Shown one piece after another: positions 34,499 through 44,559 of a DNA stretch of 44,737 nucleotides; within the stretch, counting starts at the first letter, position 1; each line of letters opens with the position of its first letter. This DNA comes from Lentisphaeria bacterium (GTDB lineage: Bacteria > Verrucomicrobiota > Lentisphaeria > Victivallales > Victivallaceae). Location of the stretch: positions 1 to 44,737 of the forward strand of contig JAFSTC010000069.1 in the NCBI GenBank assembly GCA_017450705.1. Direction: 5' to 3'. The notes under the pieces were generated by a model that was given only the letters and a program-made list of their open reading frames with translations, ran no database searches and was not told the DNA's origin. The position numbers and the translations under genes are program-made.

Positions 34499-35190
34499 AA
34501 AACAAGCTCACGGCCTTTCTCAAGACGCCCAAGGGCAAACTCGCTGCGGCGGTCGGTGCGCTGGTCCTGGTCTGGATCGTCATGCTGATCTCCTACGCCG
34601 ACGGACTTGACGCGCTGTTTCCCGACGCGGGACGCATCGCCGAGGCCCGCCGGGAGCTCCTGCGCCGGAAAAAGGCTTACGAGGCGGCTCTGGAGGACAG
34701 GAAAAAGGCGGAAAAACTCCTCGAGGATTACAACCGCGTCATCGCCCAGTCGTGGCGGGAAGAGACCCACGGCATGGTGGATACGGAGTTCCGCCGCCGC
34801 GTTTCCGAAGCCGCCCGGAGCGTCGAATTGACCCTCGACAGTCTCGGCGCCGTGAAGACCAGCCGGATCAATGCCGATTTTTACTCCGCCGAACTGGACG
34901 TCTCCGTGCGGACCGGTTACGCCGAGCTGATCAAATTCATCCGGGAAGTGGAAAAGATCGAGCCCAAAGTTTCGTGGCGGCGCATCGACATCCGGCCCGA
35001 CCGCCGGCCGCCTTTTGCGGGCGGTCCCAACAATCAGGGCGGAAGCATCGCCGCCCGGGTCCTCGGCGGAGACTCGGCGTCGAAGGTCTCCACACGCGTG
35101 GGATTCAACGGCACACTGCGCCTCATCGGCTTCGACGGCAAAGCGGCTCCCGCGCCGGTACGGAAAGACGCGAAGGGGGAAAGAAAATGA
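34495..35190 (+). CDS. gspM: Type II secretion protein GspM (PilO-like)
   Basis: The 231-residue protein has a short basic cytoplasmic tail, one membrane segment near residues 17-34 (LAAAVGALVLVWIVMLIS), a coiled coil rich in Arg, Lys and Glu, and a ferredoxin-like periplasmic domain containing ELDVSVRTGYAELIKFIREV. That is the layout of GspM/PilO, which pairs with GspL/PilN in the inner-membrane platform. A Pro/Gly/Asn-rich insertion (RRPPFAGGPNNQGGS) interrupts the periplasmic domain. It overlaps its neighbours by 4 bp on each side (ATGA), which points to translational coupling and equal amounts of L, M and C. Confidence 0.75.
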   Translation: MKNKLTAFLKTPKGKLAAAVGALVLVWIVMLISYADGLDALFPDAGRIAEARRELLRRKKAYEAALEDRKKAEKLLEDYNRVIAQSWREETHGMVDTEFRRRVSEAARSVELTLDSLGAVKTSRINADFYSAELDVSVRTGYAELIKFIREVEKIEPKVSWRRIDIRPDRRPPFAGGPNNQGGSIAARVLGGDSASKVSTRVGFNGTLRLIGFDGKAAPAPVRKDAKGERK

Positions 35191-36107
35191 AAAACCTTTT
35201 CATCCTGATCAACTGCATTCTCGGCGCCGCGGTCTGCGGGCTCTTTGTTTCCAACGTGGCCCACGCGACGAAGGCCAAGCCTGTCTACGAGGTCAAAAAG
35301 CGTCAGCCCCGGAAGGCTCCGGCGCAGGAACCCGAGACCCGGAACAAACTGGAGATCCCTGAGGAAAACCGTGAAAAGACCATCGTCGATGCGGATATCT
35401 TCAATCCCGACAGGGCGCCCAATGTCTCCATGTGGGGGAGGGGGCGTACGCAGATGACTCTTGTCGGCACTTTCAAGGCGGGCAAGATGGAGGGGGCGAT
35501 CATCCTTCAGCAGAACACCCAGCGCTGGCGCTCGCCCATGGGACCCATGGGCGCCATGATGCCTCCCGGAGCCATGTCGGCCATGATGGGCGGCATGATG
35601 GGCGGCAATTCCCCCGGCGGACCGGCCGGTCCGGGCGGCGGGAACGCCGGCAGCGGCGGGAACGCCGGGAACGGCCGCGGGAACGCCGGGAACGGCCGCG
35701 GGAACGGCCGCGGCCTCGGAAGCACGCGGCAGCGCTGGTCCATGATGAACCCCGGTTTCTTCCAGCAGCAGGGCGGTGCGAACCCGAACCAGATCTCCAA
35801 CATGCCCGTCAAGCAGTATGTTCGCGTCGGCGAGACGCTGGCCAACGGCTATACGCTGGTCGAGGTGACCCGGACCAGGGCCGTTTTGAGCAAGGGAGGG
35901 GACAAAATGGAGCTTGAGCTTCAGGATCCCTCCAAGAACCAGACCCAGCGCCGTACCGCGGCCCGGCCCGGCAACGCCAGCCAGCAGCTCCAGCAGGCCC
36001 AGCTTCAGACCCAGCAGCAGATGCTGCGCATGATGTTCATGATGCAGGGCCGCATGATGAATGGCGGCGGCGGTAACGCAGGCGGCGGTCGCGGCGGCAG
36101 AAGATGA
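35187..36107 (+). CDS. gspC: GspC/PilP-like protein with a Gly/Met/Asn-rich insertion
   Basis: The 306-residue product starts at the ATG overlapping the gspM stop. An N-terminal membrane anchor (FILINCILGAAVCGLFVSNV) is followed by a Pro/Lys linker and the homology-region motif of GspC/PilP: IVDADIFNPDR, then MTLVGTFKAGKMEGAIIL. This beta-domain, which touches the secretin, resumes far downstream with YVRVGETLANGYTLVEVTRT and AVLSKGGDKMELEL. Between the halves lie roughly 100 residues rich in Met, Gly, Pro and Asn, including a GNAGNGR repeat encoded by 21-bp tandem repeats. A second low-complexity Gln/Met/Gly/Arg tail ends the protein. I know of no described GspC with such an insertion. Assignment rests on the split domain and on its place before gspD. 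Confidence 0.75.
   Translation: MKNLFILINCILGAAVCGLFVSNVAHATKAKPVYEVKKRQPRKAPAQEPETRNKLEIPEENREKTIVDADIFNPDRAPNVSMWGRGRTQMTLVGTFKAGKMEGAIILQQNTQRWRSPMGPMGAMMPPGAMSAMMGGMMGGNSPGGPAGPGGGNAGSGGNAGNGRGNAGNGRGNGRGLGSTRQRWSMMNPGFFQQQGGANPNQISNMPVKQYVRVGETLANGYTLVEVTRTRAVLSKGGDKMELELQDPSKNQTQRRTAARPGNASQQLQQAQLQTQQQMLRMMFMMQGRMMNGGGGNAGGGRGGRR
35658..35711 (+). repeat. 21-bp tandem repeat inside gspC
   Basis: Two perfect 21-bp units (35658-35678 and 35679-35699), each ending in GGGAACGGCCGC, are followed by a 12-bp partial copy. Each unit encodes GNAGNGR. The array is in frame, so loss or gain of units would change only the length of the insertion. Confidence 0.85.
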
Positions 36108-38599
36108 AGAAATCGATTTCAGCGAGAAAAAAACATAGTGATGGTGAACAAATGACAGAAAAAACGCTTCCCCGGGATTTCCGGACGCCCCCGCTGTTCC
36201 GGCACTGCGTCCGGACCATTCTCCTTGCCGTGCTGATCTCTTCCTTCGGCTGCAGTCTCTTCGAAGACCCCCCGGAAGAGCCCAAGGTGAAGAAGGAAGA
36301 GAAAAAGAAGGAGGAGAAAAAGGAGGACCGGTTCGCGTTCCTGCGCCGGGACGAGCGGAAAAAGCTCAAAGAGGTCTACGAATCCATCGAGATGGAGCAG
36401 ATCAGCGCAAAACACCAGTCTTCCATGCCCATCCCCGATGCGAAACTCAAAACGCTGGAGCAGGGAAAAGTCGTTTCTCCCGACGGACAGGTTTCCGGCG
36501 GAGACGGCAAGGGCGGCAAGGGCGGCAAAGCGCCCGCACAGAAGAAGTTTTATGACGATTTCATTTTGCTCAACGGAGACGAGGAGATCGCCGTTTCCCT
36601 CATTTTCAACAGCGCTCCGCTGCTGGACGTGCTCTCCGCCTTCGCCGATGTGCTCGGTTTCAACTTCGTCGCCGACAGCGACATGAAGAGCACCATCACG
36701 CTCAATCTCAACAGCAAGATGACCCGGCGGGAACTCTGGGCCACTTTCGAGCACATGATCTCCCTTGCCGGCGGCGCCGTCAAGGTGGAGGACTCCCTCC
36801 TGCGGATCATGCTCCGCAACAAGGTCAGGATGCAGCCCGAATCCCGGCCCGGCATGGACGGCAAGTCCGACATCCTCTTCTTCCCCCTCACCACCGCCAC
36901 GGCGCGTGAGGCGATGAACCAGATCCGTCCGTTCCTTTCCGTCGGCGGCATCTGTTCGGAGCTGACCAAGCCCAACGCCGTCATGGTGAGCGACGCTCCT
37001 GAAAACATGGAGAAGATCCACCAGTTGCTCATTTGCATCGACCGCAACAACAAGGCGAACTGGCCCCGGGCCGTCGTCAGCTGCCAGAACGTTTTGCCCA
37101 GCAAGCTCATTTCCGAACTGCAGGAGGTGCTTCCCGTCCTCGGTCTCAACGTCGTCAAAAACACCGACCGCGCCGAACAGCCCGGCTCCGTCCAGCTGGT
37201 GGGGCTTGACCGGCTTCAGGTGGTCGTGGCCTCCGCCGCGACCAAGGAGGCCGTGAACACCATCCGGGAGTGGATCGGACTGCTGGACTCCCGGGACGCC
37301 ACCGATCAGGAGCGGGTCTTCGTCTACAAGGTGCGCCACAACAAGGCAGCCCATCTGGCTCAGGCGCTGGCGACGATCTACGAGACCCAGGGTGCCGGAC
37401 TCTCCATCGACACCACTACGGGCAGAGCGAAGACGGAAAACATCGTCTCCGCCCGGGCCCGCGTGGCGTCGACGGCCAACACCACGGGGCTCACCGCCCG
37501 CAACAACCGCACCGCGGCGGCCAACGCCGTCGCCAACCCGTCGACCGACAAGGAGTCCAGCGTCTTCGAAAAGACGATCAAGGTTTTTTCCGACGGCGTC
37601 CTCAACCGCCTGGTCATCCGCACCACGCCCCGGACCTACGCCTCCATCAAGGCGCTTCTTGACCGGCTGGACGTGGTCCCCGCCCAGGTCCTGCTCCAGG
37701 TGCTGGTCGTCGAGGTCACGCTCTCGGAGAGTACCCAGTTCGGTCTTGAGTTTTCGGGGCAGGATACCGGGAACAAGGTGACCTCCCTCTTCGGAACGAA
37801 TTACTCCGACGGCCTGAATCCCTTCGCCCAGGTGTACAATTCGACGACGCGGGAGTGGGAGAACTCCGACCAGTTCAAAATGGGCGCCGACCGGCAGAAC
37901 GGCGGCACCTTCGTCATCGCCGATCCCAACAATCCCCAGTCCCGGTTCGGCTACATCCGGGCCATGGCCGGGGACGGGCTGGTCAAGGTGCTCTCCAGCC
38001 CCCAGCTGCTGGTCTCCAGCGACAAGCAGGCCAACATCAACGTCGGTCAGGACGTGCCCGTGATCACCAGCGGCATCACCAACACTTCCAGCGCCGGCAG
38101 TCAGCAGTACAATTACCGTTACGTCACGACGGGTGTGATCCTCACGGTGACGCCCCAGATCACCAGCAACGATCTGATCTCGCTCAACATCAAGCAGGTC
38201 CTCTCCCAGGCGGTCAACACGACCAGCAGCGACATCAAGTCGCCCACCATCTCCCAGCGGACCGTGGAGACGGCCATGACCATCGCCAACGGGCAGACCA
38301 TGGTGATCGGCGGTCTTATCCAGGAGAGAAAGGAGGACATCCTCTCCTCGCTGCCCATCATCAACAAGATCCCGATCCTCAACCGGCTGACGGGCAACAC
38401 CGATGCCAAGATCGAGCGCAACGAGGTCCTCGTCCTCGTCACGGGTTACATCGTCAACGAGCACAGCCCTGTCGAGGAGATGATCAAGCGCTACAACGAC
38501 GCCATCAAGGAACTGAACGACTTCGACCAGCGCATGGGCGACAAGCCCCGGGCCAACGAAAAACCGGCGCTGATGACTTCGAAGGACTTCTGGCTGTGA
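36104..38599 (+). CDS. gspD: Type II secretion secretin GspD
   Basis: GspD forms the outer-membrane channel of the secretion system. The 831-residue protein has a hydrophobic export segment (TILLAVLISSFGC) that may be a lipoprotein signal, although the lipobox is imperfect. The first ATG overlaps the gspC stop; an ATG at 36152 gives a tidier signal peptide. A highly charged stretch of Lys and Glu (near residues 60-80) follows. N-domains extend to about residue 540, with a low-complexity Ala/Thr/Asn insertion near 440-490. The secretin domain shows VPVITSGITN, VTTGVILTVTPQITSNDLIS, SQRTVETAMTIANGQTMVIG and a segment with SSLPIINKIPILNRL, the standard signature. It is followed 3 bp later by gspE. 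Confidence 0.95.
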   Translation: MKKSISARKKHSDGEQMTEKTLPRDFRTPPLFRHCVRTILLAVLISSFGCSLFEDPPEEPKVKKEEKKKEEKKEDRFAFLRRDERKKLKEVYESIEMEQISAKHQSSMPIPDAKLKTLEQGKVVSPDGQVSGGDGKGGKGGKAPAQKKFYDDFILLNGDEEIAVSLIFNSAPLLDVLSAFADVLGFNFVADSDMKSTITLNLNSKMTRRELWATFEHMISLAGGAVKVEDSLLRIMLRNKVRMQPESRPGMDGKSDILFFPLTTATAREAMNQIRPFLSVGGICSELTKPNAVMVSDAPENMEKIHQLLICIDRNNKANWPRAVVSCQNVLPSKLISELQEVLPVLGLNVVKNTDRAEQPGSVQLVGLDRLQVVVASAATKEAVNTIREWIGLLDSRDATDQERVFVYKVRHNKAAHLAQALATIYETQGAGLSIDTTTGRAKTENIVSARARVASTANTTGLTARNNRTAAANAVANPSTDKESSVFEKTIKVFSDGVLNRLVIRTTPRTYASIKALLDRLDVVPAQVLLQVLVVEVTLSESTQFGLEFSGQDTGNKVTSLFGTNYSDGLNPFAQVYNSTTREWENSDQFKMGADRQNGGTFVIADPNNPQSRFGYIRAMAGDGLVKVLSSPQLLVSSDKQANINVGQDVPVITSGITNTSSAGSQQYNYRYVTTGVILTVTPQITSNDLISLNIKQVLSQAVNTTSSDIKSPTISQRTVETAMTIANGQTMVIGGLIQERKEDILSSLPIINKIPILNRLTGNTDAKIERNEVLVLVTGYIVNEHSPVEEMIKRYNDAIKELNDFDQRMGDKPRANEKPALMTSKDFWL

Positions 38600-38602
38600 A
38601 CC

Positions 38603-40198
38603 ATGGAAAACGCGACTGAAAACATCTGCTCCTCCGGAAGCGCCCGGCTCGAAGAGCTCTTTGCCGCGCGTTTTCCCGACCTTGACCGCTCCGTCCGGCC
38701 CCGGGATGTCGACCGGGAGCTCATCCGGTCGGGGCGGCTTACCGAGAGCGAGCTTCTGGCGATGTACAACACGGCCTATCAGGTCCCCGAGGTCAACGAG
38801 GACGAGGTCGAACCGCCCGAACTGCCCGAGTCGGCGCCGCTGGAGTTCTTCAATTCCAACACCTGTCTCCCCCTCGAGTGGGAGCAGGACTCCGTCACGC
38901 TCCTGCTGGCGGATCCCTACGACCTGGAGGGGCTGACCTTCCTCATCCGCAAGACATGGGAGTGCGGCATGGCGCCGCGCTTCGTCCGGCGGGCGTTTCT
39001 CGAACGGCTGCTCTCCCGTTTCCAGGAGAGCGGTAACGACGAGGAAAAACTCCTCGATCAGGAGGACGAGACCACCCTGCGCTCCATGGCGGGCGAGGCC
39101 CGGATCGTCCGGCTTGTCAACGATATCTTCACACAGGCCATCGAGCTGGGCGCCAGCGATATCCACGTCGAACCCGGCGAGAGCTCCCTCTCCGTCCGCT
39201 GCCGCGTGGACGGCGTGCTGACCGAGATCATGAACTGCCCCCTCAACCAGTTCCCCGCCATCGCGTCGCGCATCAAGCTCATCGGCGGATTGAACATCGC
39301 CGAGAGTCGTCTGCCCCAGGACGGCCGCACCAATGTCAGGATCGGCAAGACCGAACTGGATATGCGTATTTCCACCATTCCCATCCTGACGGGTGAGAGC
39401 ATCGTGCTGCGTCTGCTCAATCAGGAGGCCGTGAGCTTCGATCTGCACACGCTGGGGATGAGCGATGAGATCCTCCGCAAATTCGACCGGCTCATCAGCA
39501 TCCCCCACGGCATGATCCTCGTGGTGGGCCCCACGGGAAGCGGCAAGACCACCACGCTGTACAGCGTCATCAACCAGCTCAACGACCAGAAAAAGAAGAT
39601 CATCACCATCGAGGATCCCGTGGAGTACAAGACCCCCGGCCTCTGCCAGGTCCAGGTCAATCACAAGATCGGCGTCACCTTCGCGGCGGGACTGCGCTCC
39701 ATCGTGCGTCAGGACCCGGACATCATCCTCGTCGGCGAGATCCGCGACCGTGAGACGGCCGACATCGCCATCAACGCCGCCCTGACGGGACATCTGGTGC
39801 TCAGCACGCTCCACACCAACGACGCCGCCGGCGCCGTCACCCGTCTGCTGGATATGGGCATGGAGAACTTTCTCGTCTCCTCCGCCCTTTTCGGCGTGCT
39901 CTCCCAGCGTCTGGTGCGCAAGATCTGCACTTCCTGCGGCGGCACGGGCAAGGCTCAGGACGGGGGCAAATGCCGCCGCTGCAACGGTTCCGGCTACAAG
40001 GGACGCTGCGGCATTTACGAACTGCTCATCATGGACGACGATCTGCGGGCCGCGGTCAACGCCAACGCCTCCAGCGCGGAACTTGCGCGCATCGCCGTTT
40101 CCCACGGCATGATCCCCCTGCTCGAGGACGGCCGGAGCAAAGTCGCCTCCGGCATCACGACGCAGGAAGAGCTCAACCGCTCCACCGCCAACTTGTAG
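38603..40198 (+). CDS. gspE: Type II secretion ATPase GspE
   Basis: GspE is the hexameric cytoplasmic ATPase that drives pseudopilus assembly. The 531-residue protein has an N-terminal domain that docks on GspL, then ELGASDIHVEPGESSLSVRC, Walker A GPTGSGKTTTLYS near residue 309, the Asp box TIEDPVEYK, Walker B DPDIILVGEIRDRETADIAI and the His box LSTLHTNDAAGAVTRLLDMG. A tetracysteine zinc motif (CTSCGGTGKAQ then CRRCNGSGY) is present near residues 440-465, as in GspE and PilB. The ATG has a weak ribosome-binding site and may depend on coupling to gspD, 3 bp upstream. Confidence 0.96.
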   Translation: MENATENICSSGSARLEELFAARFPDLDRSVRPRDVDRELIRSGRLTESELLAMYNTAYQVPEVNEDEVEPPELPESAPLEFFNSNTCLPLEWEQDSVTLLLADPYDLEGLTFLIRKTWECGMAPRFVRRAFLERLLSRFQESGNDEEKLLDQEDETTLRSMAGEARIVRLVNDIFTQAIELGASDIHVEPGESSLSVRCRVDGVLTEIMNCPLNQFPAIASRIKLIGGLNIAESRLPQDGRTNVRIGKTELDMRISTIPILTGESIVLRLLNQEAVSFDLHTLGMSDEILRKFDRLISIPHGMILVVGPTGSGKTTTLYSVINQLNDQKKKIITIEDPVEYKTPGLCQVQVNHKIGVTFAAGLRSIVRQDPDIILVGEIRDRETADIAINAALTGHLVLSTLHTNDAAGAVTRLLDMGMENFLVSSALFGVLSQRLVRKICTSCGGTGKAQDGGKCRRCNGSGYKGRCGIYELLIMDDDLRAAVNANASSAELARIAVSHGMIPLLEDGRSKVASGITTQEELNRSTANL

Positions 40199-40206
40199 AG
40201 GGCGTC

Positions 40207-41427
40207 ATGGCATTGTACAAATACATCGCGGCCATTCCCGGCGAGGCTTCGAGAGAGATGGTCATCGAGGCCGACAGCCAGAAGGAGGCGCTGGGCAAAC
40301 TGCGCAGCCGCGGCGCCATCCCCGTCCGCTTCTGCGGCGACGCTTCGAAGGAGGAGGGCCGCAGCGGGCTTTCTCTCAAACGCAGCCGGGTCGACACCTA
40401 CGAATTCACCCGCCAGCTCGCGCCGCTGCTGGATTCGGCCATCCCCCTCGAGCGGGCGCTGGCGATCATCGCCGAGGGCGCTCAGGAGCCCGAGCAGCGC
40501 ACGTTCGTCAACGGTCTGCGTCAGGGACTGCACGAGGGCAAGAAATTCTCCGAACTGGTGCGGTCCCACGGCGCGCTGTTTCCCGGCTATTACGCCAACC
40601 TCATCGAGAGCGGCGAGGAAACGGGGTGTCTGCCGGTGGTCGTCAACGAGCTCTACAAATTCATGGGCGAGTCGAAGGAACTGCGGGACTTCATCGTCTC
40701 CAGTTCCATCTATCCGCTGGCTATCCTCGGTATCACCGTTGCGGTCACGGTGCTGCTTTTCACCGTGTTCGTGCCGCGTTTTGCGAAAATCTTCGTCGAC
40801 ATGGGGCGGGAACTGCCCGGTTCCATGCTTTTCCTCATGGCGGCCAGTTCCTTCTTCGCGTGGGCGTGGTGGCTCGTCCCCCTGTCCGTCACGGTCCTCT
40901 GGAAGAGCCTCAAACACATCATGGGAGAGGATCAGTTCAAGTTCAAACTGAGCGGGATCGTCGTTTCACTGCCCCTTTTCGGCCGCATCGCGGTGGATCT
41001 CGACATGTGCAAATACATCCGCACGCTGGCCATCCTGATCGCCAATCACGTGGAGATCATCCGGACGGTCCGCATCGCGGGGCGCATCATCGGCAACCCC
41101 GTGGTCGCCGCCTCCTTCGACGGCATCGACCGCAAGCTGAAGGGCGGTGAAAAACTCTCTGCGGCCCTGCGGGGCAATCCTTTCGTTCCCCCGAGCCTCG
41201 TCCCCATGCTCCGCGTGGGGGAGGAGTCCGGAACGGTCGGCGACATGCTCACCAAGATCGCCGGCAATCTCGAAAACGACACCCGGCTCAAGATCAAGCG
41301 GCTTTTGAGTCTCTTCGAGCCGGCGGTGATCGTGTTTCTCGCGGTGGTGGTTCTGATCGTAGTCGTGTCGATTTTCGTCGCCATGATGGAGATAAATTCA
41401 ATCAGCCAGGGAGGACCCTCGATATGA
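40207..41427 (+). CDS. gspF: Type II secretion inner-membrane protein GspF
   Basis: GspF is the polytopic protein at the centre of the assembly platform. It has 406 residues, as usual for the family, in two related cytoplasmic halves separated by membrane segments. Family features are ALYKYIAAIPGEASREMVIE at the start, FTRQLAPLLDSAIPLERALA and, in the second half, VPPSLVPMLRVGEESGTVGD. Three membrane segments are visible near residues 170-195, 215-240 and 375-400. It starts 8 bp after gspE and overlaps gspG as ATGA. Confidence 0.95.
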   Translation: MALYKYIAAIPGEASREMVIEADSQKEALGKLRSRGAIPVRFCGDASKEEGRSGLSLKRSRVDTYEFTRQLAPLLDSAIPLERALAIIAEGAQEPEQRTFVNGLRQGLHEGKKFSELVRSHGALFPGYYANLIESGEETGCLPVVVNELYKFMGESKELRDFIVSSSIYPLAILGITVAVTVLLFTVFVPRFAKIFVDMGRELPGSMLFLMAASSFFAWAWWLVPLSVTVLWKSLKHIMGEDQFKFKLSGIVVSLPLFGRIAVDLDMCKYIRTLAILIANHVEIIRTVRIAGRIIGNPVVAASFDGIDRKLKGGEKLSAALRGNPFVPPSLVPMLRVGEESGTVGDMLTKIAGNLENDTRLKIKRLLSLFEPAVIVFLAVVVLIVVVSIFVAMMEINSISQGGPSI

Positions 41428-41858
41428 AAAAGCAGTACAGAAACAAAAAGGCCGTCAGTTTCGGATTCACCCTCATCGAAATCGTGGTCGTCATCGTCAT
41501 TCTGGTGACGCTGGCCTCCATCGCGACGCCGCTTTACCTCAATTACGTGAAGCGGGCCAACGTGGGCGCCGCCAAGACCCAGATGAAACTTCTCGAGGAC
41601 GCCCTCACGGGCTACCGGCTGGATGTCGGCAGTTATCCCGACGGCAACTCCGGACTTCAGGCGCTGGTGGAAAACGTGGACAACAACGAGAAGTGGAACG
41701 GCCCCTACATCAAGCCCGCGGTCCCCAAGGATCCCTGGGGCAACGCCTACGTCTACACCTCTCCCGGCGAGCACGGCGACTACGACCTGACCTGTTACGG
41801 CGCCGACGGTCAGCCCGGCGGCGAGGGCGACAACGCCGATATCAACAACTGGGAATAA
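41424..41858 (+). CDS. gspG: Major pseudopilin GspG
   Basis: GspG builds the pseudopilus shaft. The 144-residue precursor has a short basic leader and the prepilin site SFG|FTLIEIVVV with Gly at -1 and Glu at +5. DPWGNAYVYTSPGEHG and the C-terminal Asp-rich GADGQPGGEGDNADINNW match the calcium-binding loop of GspG. This is clear evidence for type II secretion rather than type IV pili. It is the only one of the four FTL-type pseudopilins here (G, H, I, J) that keeps Gly at -1. Its ATG overlaps the gspF stop. No prepilin peptidase gene lies in the window. Confidence 0.96.
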   Translation: MKKQYRNKKAVSFGFTLIEIVVVIVILVTLASIATPLYLNYVKRANVGAAKTQMKLLEDALTGYRLDVGSYPDGNSGLQALVENVDNNEKWNGPYIKPAVPKDPWGNAYVYTSPGEHGDYDLTCYGADGQPGGEGDNADINNWE

Positions 41859-41883: not shown

Positions 41884-42507
41884 ATGATGTTTCCCCGCAG
41901 CTGTGCAGCGGTTTCCGGAGATCGGGCGTTCACGCTGATCGAGCTGGTCGTCACCATTACGATCATCATCCTCACGATCTCGATCGTCAGTTCGACGATC
42001 CGCAAGGAGTCCCCGTCGCAGATCCTGGACCGGATGGGGCTGGAGTTCCGTGCCTACTGCGCCAGAGTCCGCTACCGGGCCTGCGAATCGGGACGGGACT
42101 GGGTCGTGAGCTACGATCCCGACGAAAAGAACTTTTCCGCTTCTCCGGGCAAGTACGAACGTTTCCGCATGCCCGGGACCGACGCCGGTCTGAACGGCCG
42201 TGCGGCGGAGGATGACGACGGGGACGAGGCTGACGAAACCTATGCCGAAGGCGGCGTCTATGCCCCGCTGGTTTGGAAACTGCCGGAAGGTGTGGAGTTC
42301 ACCACGGAAGACTCTTCGGAGGATTCCCTCATGGTCGGGGAAAAACTGGAGGTGTTCCGCTTCTTTCCCGACGGCGGCGGTTCCGGCAGCGGGCATCTCG
42401 AACTGCGATGCGGCGACCTGAGCCGCATTTTCAGGATCACCCGGCTGACCGGGCGTCTGGTGATGATGGAGAAGGAAGATTTCGAAAGGGAACGGGACGG
42501 ACGGTGA
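41884..42507 (+). CDS. gspH: Minor pseudopilin GspH (Ala at -1)
   Basis: The 207-residue protein has an N-terminal prepilin motif RA|FTLIELVVTIT, with Ala rather than Gly at the cleavage position. A single hydrophobic helix follows, then a globular domain with an acidic insert (AAEDDDGDEADE). By position between gspG and gspI it is GspH, part of the pseudopilus tip. The gene starts 25 bp after gspG, the largest gap in the operon apart from the leader, and has no clear ribosome-binding site. It overlaps gspI as GTGA. Confidence 0.85.
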   Translation: MMFPRSCAAVSGDRAFTLIELVVTITIIILTISIVSSTIRKESPSQILDRMGLEFRAYCARVRYRACESGRDWVVSYDPDEKNFSASPGKYERFRMPGTDAGLNGRAAEDDDGDEADETYAEGGVYAPLVWKLPEGVEFTTEDSSEDSLMVGEKLEVFRFFPDGGGSGSGHLELRCGDLSRIFRITRLTGRLVMMEKEDFERERDGR

Positions 42508-42902
42508 AAACGCATTTTACCCTCATCGAGATCGTTGTCGCCCTGGGCATCCTCGCCATCAGTCTGGGCGGTCTGCTTCAGCTTTCCATCAGTTCCCAGC
42601 TCAAGATCGGCCGGGCCGTGGAGGCGTGGGAGAACATGCATATGGTGACCCAGGCCGCCGAATATCTGCTGTTGCACAACGAGGAGACCACCGAGATCCC
42701 CCCCGAGTTTTTCCCCTATCCCGGTTACGAGATCGCCTGTTCCTACGACGACGCCGAGGGGCTGCCCGAGGAGCTGGAGAACCTCACGGGCCAAGTTCCG
42801 CTCAAGCAGTGCCGAATCGAGCTTATCCGCACCTCCGATCACAAGACGCTTGAGACCGTTATCGTCGACCGCTTCGGCTACGGGGAGTCTTCCGAGCAAT
42901 GA
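42504..42902 (+). CDS. gspI: Minor pseudopilin GspI (His at -1)
   Basis: The gene starts at a GTG overlapping the gspH stop and encodes 132 residues. The whole leader is only KTH after the initiator, then FTLIEIVVALGILAIS, so the residue at -1 is His. The membrane helix and the following ESGxxGY-poor small domain fit the size of GspI. It would sit at the pseudopilus tip with GspJ and GspK. A longer upstream frame exists but overlaps gspH and has no support. It overlaps gspJ as ATGA. Confidence 0.85.
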   Translation: MKTHFTLIEIVVALGILAISLGGLLQLSISSQLKIGRAVEAWENMHMVTQAAEYLLLHNEETTEIPPEFFPYPGYEIACSYDDAEGLPEELENLTGQVPLKQCRIELIRTSDHKTLETVIVDRFGYGESSEQ

Positions 42903-43576
42903 TCCGGCGCAGATTCACCCTCTTCGAAGTGATCGTGGCCATGATGGTCATGGCGGTCGTTGCCATGATCATCGGGACCGCCGGGGCGACTTTCTACAAC
43001 GGTTACCGGCGGTCAGTGCGCAGCGTGGAACATTTGGAGTGCTGCATCATGATCGACCGCATCTTCGACACGCTGATCCGCAATACGGTCCCCTTCAAGT
43101 GGACCGACGACGAGAATGCTTCGCGGCTGGTCTTCAACGGCACTTCCGACACGCTTCTTTTCACGGCGCTGCGCCGCTCCTACGGCGGGGATTCCGGCGG
43201 TCTCGTCTTCGTTCGGCTTCTGGTGGAGGATGAGCAGCTGATCGCGGAGTATTCCGCAAGTCCCATCCTCCCGTGGGGGGAGGGGGAGGAACTGGGTGTC
43301 GAACGGGAAGTCATCGCCAAAAACATCGCTTCCATCACCTTTCAGTACGCCGAATTCGATGATGAGAACGGCATCGACTGGCAGGAAACCTGGGAAGAGG
43401 AGGAGAATGACACACTGCCTGTTGCCATCCGCATGACGGTGGAGTGGCTCGACGGCCGGAAGGAATACTGGCTCCGCCGGACCGCGGGCAATTCCTGGGA
43501 AAGCACTTTCGGTTACCGGATGGCTGAGGACGAAGCCCTGTCCGGCAACGGACAGAATCAGGGAGGCCGCCGATGA
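42899..43576 (+). CDS. gspJ: Minor pseudopilin GspJ (Arg at -1)
   Basis: This 225-residue protein begins MIRRR followed by FTLFEVIVAMMVMAVVAMII, a type IV pilin-like helix with Glu at +5 but Arg at -1. The globular part includes ITFQYAEFDDENGIDWQETW, and the segment VAIRMTVEWLDGRKEYWLRR is typical of GspJ C termini. It belongs to the tip complex of the pseudopilus. The ATG overlaps gspI and the stop overlaps gspK, both as ATGA. Confidence 0.9.
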   Translation: MIRRRFTLFEVIVAMMVMAVVAMIIGTAGATFYNGYRRSVRSVEHLECCIMIDRIFDTLIRNTVPFKWTDDENASRLVFNGTSDTLLFTALRRSYGGDSGGLVFVRLLVEDEQLIAEYSASPILPWGEGEELGVEREVIAKNIASITFQYAEFDDENGIDWQETWEEEENDTLPVAIRMTVEWLDGRKEYWLRRTAGNSWESTFGYRMAEDEALSGNGQNQGGRR

Positions 43577-44559
43577 ACCGGGACAGGGAAAACGGGTCGG
43601 CTCTTGTGGCGGTCCTCGCGCTGATCTTCACCGCAGGGCTCCTGACCTCCGCGGTGCTGGCCCTGTCGCGCATCGGGACCTTCGAGGTGCTTCCCCACGT
43701 GGCGCGCCAGCGCTCCATGTACGTGCTGGAGGGGGCGGGGAACCGGGTGCAGTATCTGCTGGCCGCGGACCGCTACCTCAACGACGACGTGACTTTGGGC
43801 GAGCTGGACTACTCGGAGTTCGAGTATGACCGCTACGTGGCCGACGGCGTTCCCCACGTCATCGACTATTACGGGGAGACGGTGGAGTTCGTCATCACCG
43901 ACGCCTCCGGCGGTTTCCCCATGTCCGCTTCGGCGTACACGCAGACGCTGAACCGCATGGCCAGCGGGTTCGAGGACGATTCCGAGTGGAACGACAGACT
44001 GACGGCGTTCCGCGACAAGATGGACGATTACATCGATTCCGACACCGACGTCAAGACCGACGGCATGGAGTCCGGCGAGTACGAGGAACTGCGTCTTTAC
44101 AATCTGCCGCGCAACGCTGCGCCCCAGTTCCGCGAGGAACTGCTGTGGATCCCCGGCGCCCGGGAACTCTTTCCCACGGACCGGAACGGCCGCTTCACCC
44201 GGGTGATGATCATTCCCCCGGAAAAAATGGGCGATCTCCCCGTCAAGCCCAGTCTCATGACCGCCGACGAGCTCATGCTCCGGACCTACTGCGGTCTGGA
44301 CGAGGACGAGGCCAAGGAGGTTTTGGAAAGTCTCCGCCGTCTGCGGACGGACAAGGAGCTTTTGAGCGAGACGCTGGATCCCCTGATCGCCGAACGGCTC
44401 TCCAATCTGGCGGTGAAGGAGAGCGGCTTCTACACCGTCGACATCAAACTGGGAGAGGAGAAGAAGTCCTCCGCCCGTCTCTCCTTCAGTTTCGAGGGCT
44501 TCTCCGTCGGCGGCCCCGACGATCAGATCGTGCGCTTCCTCGACTGGATGATGTACTGA
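43573..44559 (+). CDS. gspK: Minor pseudopilin GspK
   Basis: GspK caps the pseudopilus. The 328-residue protein starts MNRDRENG then SALVAVLALIFTAGLLTSAV, so Gly is present at -1 and Glu at +5 is absent, which is normal for GspK. The long globular domain with acidic segments and two saposin-like helical parts (DELMLRTYCGLDEDEAKEVL in the second) fits the family. It ends the operon; a strong hairpin follows 33 bp later. gspO and gspN are not found downstream within the window. Confidence 0.9.
   Translation: MNRDRENGSALVAVLALIFTAGLLTSAVLALSRIGTFEVLPHVARQRSMYVLEGAGNRVQYLLAADRYLNDDVTLGELDYSEFEYDRYVADGVPHVIDYYGETVEFVITDASGGFPMSASAYTQTLNRMASGFEDDSEWNDRLTAFRDKMDDYIDSDTDVKTDGMESGEYEELRLYNLPRNAAPQFREELLWIPGARELFPTDRNGRFTRVMIIPPEKMGDLPVKPSLMTADELMLRTYCGLDEDEAKEVLESLRRLRTDKELLSETLDPLIAERLSNLAVKESGFYTVDIKLGEEKKSSARLSFSFEGFSVGGPDDQIVRFLDWMMY

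Follow-up and report, generated by a model that had tools for sequence, protein, structure and literature searches.

Prepilin-like proteins of Lentisphaeria lack glycine before the predicted cleavage site, suggesting a prepilin peptidase with a relaxed P1 requirement

The leader of bacterial prepilins, archaea excepted, invariably ends in a Gly that is regarded as 'absolutely critical' for processing (reviewed in PMC4471445). How might the pseudopilins of a type II secretion system (T2SS) be processed when this residue is missing from several of them? The question is raised by an operon on a stretch of 44,737 nucleotides (hereafter the window), which is C37 among the 117 contigs of a 3.97 Mb draft genome. 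The operon is an unremarkable T2SS pseudopilin operon from a Lentisphaeria (Victivallales-type) bacterium, with genes in the order gspD-E-F-G-H-I-J-K and family-level matches for their products, which are strong for GspD, GspE, GspF and GspG and weaker for the rest (Table 1). In a scan of named genomes the closest relatives of its GspE were found in Lentisphaeria MAGs from ruminants and gut (L145 with 88% and L146 with 85% identity), Victivallis sp. among them. Upstream of gspD, an ORF at 34752-36107 encodes a Met/Gly/Gln-rich protein, possibly GspC-like by position, for which no Pfam match was found. Elsewhere in the same genome (C80:2044-2265) there is a second fragment that matches GspK residues 255-328 at 96% identity and is interrupted by one TGA; it may be a strain variant, a partial duplication or an assembly remnant.

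A sequence-only reading of the window had reported that Ala, His and Arg precede FTL(I/F)E in GspH, GspI and GspJ, that GspG and GspK have Gly at this position, and that no alternative start restores Gly. All of this holds on inspection: the reading frames of gspG to gspK, read directly from the sequence, are intact, and gspI begins with a GTG codon that overlaps the gspH stop. Since the entire leader of GspI (MKTH), that of GspJ (MIRRR) and many other leaders in the genome are free of Gly, we ruled out another start or another leader Gly as the true site.

Table 1. Genes of the T2SS operon in the window, with the residue at -1 and the adjoining sequence (a slash separates -1 from +1)
Gene	Product	Position	Strand	Family evidence	-1 codon	Start of FTLxE	Junction
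gspD	secretin	36104..38599	+	TIGR02517 8e-92			
gspE	assembly ATPase	38603..40198	+	TIGR02533 3e-160			
gspF	inner membrane platform protein	40198..41427	+	TIGR02120 1.6e-88			
gspG	major pseudopilin	41424..41858	+	TIGR01710 3.9e-44 (strong); PF08334	Gly, 41463-41465	FTLIE from 41466	...AVSFG/FTLIEIVVV
gspH	minor pseudopilin	41884..42507	+	TIGR01708 5.2e-6 (weak but consistent)	GCG (Ala), 41926-41928	FTLIE from 41929	...SGDRA/FTLIELVV
gspI	minor pseudopilin	42504..42902	+	gene order and weak HMM match (0.008)	CAT (His), 42513-42515	FTLIE from 42516	H/FTLIEIVVA
gspJ	minor pseudopilin	42899..43576	+	PRK08808 6.8e-6, PF11612 1.3e-5 (weak but consistent)	AGA (Arg), 42911-42913	FTLFE from 42914	MIRRR/FTLFEVIV
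gspK	minor pseudopilin	43573..44559	+	NF037980 4.2e-7 (weak but consistent)	Gly, 43594-43596	without Phe1 and Glu5	MNRDRENG/SALVAVLAL

We carried out the genome-wide survey of -1 residues that the earlier reading had proposed. The pattern of FTLIE and then one of Leu, Ile, Val, Met or Phe is found 156 times in the genome, compared with a single occurrence of the reversed control, and the 145 distinct FTLxE proteins that we read cover nearly all of these pattern regions; they are paralogues from an expanded family, and the counts are thus non-independent. Only 8 of the 145 carry Gly at -1. Sixteen residue types are found there, with Arg the commonest and Glu never present (Arg 55, Ala 14, Ser 11, Lys 10, Gly 8, His 7, Asn 6, Cys 6, Gln 5, Asp 5, Pro 4, Phe 4, Leu 4, Thr 2, Tyr 2, Val 2). 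By contrast, Phe1, Thr2, Leu3 and Glu5 are present in 145/145, an invariance that is partly by construction (search pattern F-T/S-L-x-E), the informative part being the free variation at -1. The frequency of Gly at -1 is below that expected from positions -2 to -6 (5.9% vs 9.6%; 8 seen, 13 expected), which indicates no preference for Gly, while Arg shows a mild enrichment (51 observed vs 29 expected, p about 1e-4). Furthermore, Gly is entirely missing from at least 56 of 136 leaders, so that in these no other leader position could supply a Gly site. Therefore, the Gly-less state of GspH, GspI and GspJ is the normal state of this genome and not a chance departure. Many members of the expanded family carry an H-X9-DG motif (76/145), and one tested member matches PF07596. 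The expansion of these proteins is very large, with 156 FTLIE sites in the 3.97 Mb of this genome and up to 206 in another (G011).

This pattern extends across the class. A set of 115 genomes from the phylum was searched with two patterns, one that included a preceding Gly codon and one that did not. Gly was found at 102 of 2009 sites in Lentisphaeria (5%) and at 75 of 94 sites in other Verrucomicrobiota (80%; Fisher p about 1e-69, a descriptive value, as are the others given here, since the cases from different genomes are related by descent and kinship was ignored). Outside the class, 16 of the 19 non-Gly sites were read, and all 16 have Ala. No class genome with at least 5 sites exceeds a Gly fraction of 12/67. 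In other families of the class (G079, G083, G112, G086 and G046) the -1 residues include Arg, Ala, Ser, Gln, His, Lys, Phe, Glu and Met, which maps the change to the base of the class.

The T2SS pseudopilins of 30 class genomes tell the same story and also show where Gly is kept. Among 100 GspG to GspJ starts, for which any +1 residue was allowed in the search, +1 is Phe in 96, whereas -1 takes 17 residue types and is Gly in 8 and Gly or Ala in 16. Even the major pseudopilin GspG has Gly in only 2 of the 30 genomes; the Gly of the window's GspG is an exception that is common to its two closest named relatives. Several T2SS-like systems are suggested in one genome (G006) by four GspG and four GspK homologues (C1:3843478, C2:770237, C2:506820 and C2:887218). 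GspK, which lacks Phe1 and Glu5, keeps Gly at -1 in 23 of 25 readable class cases, the other 2 being Asn (sites placed by the G/xAL motif and counted by eye), and the contrast with GspG to GspJ is pronounced (p about 3e-16, the cases being related by descent). In the same scan, T2SS loci of other phyla have mostly kept Gly. The Tad-type substrates adjoining the TadV genes of the window's genome have Gly as well. The FTLxE proteins of Lentisphaeria retain the features of a class III signal peptide, namely a hydrophilic, basic leader, about 20 hydrophobic residues and Phe1 with Glu5 (GspK apart), but mostly lack the Gly (or Ala) at -1.

Is the enzyme correspondingly unusual? The genome encodes one classical PilD (290 aa) together with two TadV/CpaA-type enzymes in Tad loci, and a PilD-type (PF06750) gene is present exactly once in 59/59 class genomes. 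The PilD of the window's genome (L032; AlphaFold2 model with a mean pLDDT of 92) belongs with the PilD/GspO enzymes (MEROPS A24, bacterial type), having PF06750 and PF01478, four Cys, two catalytic Asp and GxGD. We also compared this peptidase with classical ones, as proposed in the earlier reading. All aligned enzymes (29 from the class and 16 others) have the catalytic D145 and D217, the GxGD motif, K219 and the four Cys, and no single residue that would explain the loss of Gly was found among these and three gammaproteobacterial enzymes. Positions conserved in other Verrucomicrobiota PilD and altered in the class include G158 and T142 (each changed in 29/29) as well as L220, G163, G189, G193, A212 and M213, none of which is changed throughout the class (G163, G189, G193 and L220 are relaxed in part of it). 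G158 and T142 separate the class perfectly from other Verrucomicrobiota, but the gammaproteobacterial enzymes, in which position 158 is Pro and position 142 is Phe or Thr, show that Gly specificity does not in general depend on them. We also dropped the excess divergence of the peptidase half as evidence, because gammaproteobacterial PilD shows the same trend (conservation of the peptidase vs the N-terminal half is 0.67 vs 0.82 there and 0.72 vs 0.89 in the class). When solved structures were searched by sequence, the matches were all to pentatricopeptide-repeat proteins and due to chance, and comparing the fold of the PilD model with the PDB gave nothing usable; PilD genes adjoining GspE-like loci of other phyla were looked for and not found. 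In several non-Victivallales families of Lentisphaeria, PilD (L177, L180, L192, L193, L198 and L206) carries an insert of ~90-105 residues just before GxGD, which has no convincing Pfam match and is absent from the window's PilD and from the aligned enzymes of other groups.

Judged by the substrate survey by itself, a Gly/Ala requirement at P1 is apparently absent in Lentisphaeria PilD. The switch from variable leader to invariant mature part falls exactly between -1 and +1, and in composition -1 resembles an ordinary leader position apart from a slight excess of Arg. From this sharp boundary, the conserved Phe1 and Glu5 and the retained catalytic enzyme we infer cleavage at -1/+1, with PilD as its presumed agent and a changed P1 pocket as its presumed cause. 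We consider it likely that Lentisphaeria PilD no longer needs Gly or Ala at P1 and that it identifies its substrates by the FTLxE with which the mature protein begins. In the mechanism that we propose, the near-universal P1 requirement would have been lost from the single PilD/GspO-type peptidase of the class; the substrate would be recognised by its mature start (Phe1-Thr-Leu-x-Glu5 and the hydrophobic helix) together with the basic leader; and the cut would be made before Phe1 whatever residue precedes it, as a modified P1 pocket would permit. As GspK lacks Phe1 and Glu5 and keeps Gly at -1, the enzyme probably still uses Gly on substrates without the FTLxE signal. A more far-reaching claim, for which we see the case as evenly balanced, is that this is the first known bacterial prepilin peptidase to read FTLxE instead of Gly at -1, cutting after almost any residue (Arg, Asp and Phe included), with a second, Gly-dependent mode for GspK-like substrates, and that the change took place at the root of the class, alongside an increase in prepilin-like proteins to as many as ~200 in a genome.

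The non-Gly prepilins could instead remain uncut, either as leader-bearing proteins anchored in the membrane or as subunits of a Lentisphaeria pseudopilus that is built without cleavage. Substitutions at -1 other than Ala abolish processing in classical systems (PMC6497953, PMC4471445), and a family of ~150 members could well consist of membrane-anchored surface proteins rather than filament subunits. However, Phe1 and Glu5 are conserved almost without exception in the expanded family as well as in four divergent pseudopilins from 30 genomes, with variation beginning exactly at -1, and this conservation is best explained if Phe1 becomes the N-terminus and pairs with Glu5 during assembly. PilD is moreover present throughout the class genomes with its catalytic pair kept in every aligned enzyme, and Gly is missing in 28 of 30 genomes from GspG, a subunit whose processing is indispensable in known T2SS. 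We therefore regard uncut prepilins as unlikely. Less probable still is cleavage of the non-Gly substrates by another peptidase, whether an A24 enzyme of TadV/CpaA type from the Tad loci or some unrelated protease, with PilD left to cut GspK and the few Gly-bearing proteins. The two TadV-like enzymes of the window's genome would be candidates for this role, but the Tad-type substrates beside such genes retain Gly, and the same -1 pattern is found in three genomes in which PilD is the only A24 peptidase (Gly at 1/150 sites in G006, 7/53 in G016 and 5/179 in G009). If an A24 peptidase cuts these sites, a single enzyme must there serve both the Gly and the non-Gly ones.

The distribution of Gly within the window, present in GspG and GspK and absent from H, I and J, could be taken to mean that only the minor tip subunits are affected and that tip assembly differs in this T2SS. 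This is very improbable, being contradicted by the comparative data, in which GspG is itself usually Gly-less, as are ~95% of all FTLxE proteins. Decaying proteins or errors of sequencing or gene calling would be conceivable in a draft of so many contigs; the frames, however, are open, the operon is compact with overlapping genes, and the pattern recurs in 40 class genomes that include few-contig assemblies (G006 and G083), which leaves this explanation with hardly any credibility. Of the options raised by the sequence-only reading, a relaxed peptidase in this lineage is thus favoured by the genome-wide, class-wide and single-peptidase evidence; the effect confined to poorly cut tip subunits falls with the GspG data, and the involvement of another enzyme has become unlikely in view of the single-peptidase genomes. 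We accordingly retain a PilD with a relaxed P1 requirement as the preferred explanation.

Gly at -1 is taken to define a bacterial prepilin, and both prediction rules and experiments presuppose it. Its loss from almost every pilus-like protein in a class of gut and environmental bacteria suggests that the cutting enzyme recognises its targets differently, and a whole class without it would mean that the rule stems from the enzyme and not from the fold or from assembly. Tools that demand Gly would miss or misplace most Lentisphaeria prepilins. In addition, PilD enzymes that differ naturally in this requirement would be available, and swaps of domains and residues between them could probe the P1 pocket of prepilin peptidases.

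No earlier description of Gly-free sites in Lentisphaeria was found in the searchable open-access literature (subscription papers lay outside the search), and the sites of this class are a new departure from the published rule that Gly at -1 is essential. The expanded family of the genome corresponds to the DUF1559/H-X9-DG prepilin-like proteins (PF07596, TIGR02532); TIGR02532 is named for a GFxxxE motif, the G of which is missing in ~95% of the members here. Like the classical class III peptides of PilD/GspO (PMC4471445, PMC6497953), the Lentisphaeria proteins have a short basic leader, Phe1, Glu5 and a hydrophobic helix of ~20 residues, and as in the classical system there is a single bifunctional PilD with a four-Cys N-terminal domain and two catalytic Asp. 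Unlike that system, in which -1 is Gly and only Ala is tolerated in tests, -1 is free in Lentisphaeria (Arg, Lys, His, Asp, Phe and others). In Streptococcus sanguinis G-1A was processed and G-1S was not (PMC6497953), and in P. aeruginosa, as cited in that paper, bulkier -1 residues abolish processing. The archaeal peptidase PibD is more flexible toward its substrates (PMC4187195), and Sulfolobus resembles Lentisphaeria in combining one A24 peptidase with diverse residues around the cleavage site (PMC4187195, PMC4371748), a site that in Lentisphaeria is a predicted one. PibD, however, is archaeal and without the four-Cys methyltransferase domain of Lentisphaeria PilD, and at the natural archaeal sites listed in PMC4371748 the -1 residue is mostly Ala, Gly or Ser, in contrast to the predominance of bulky and charged residues in Lentisphaeria.
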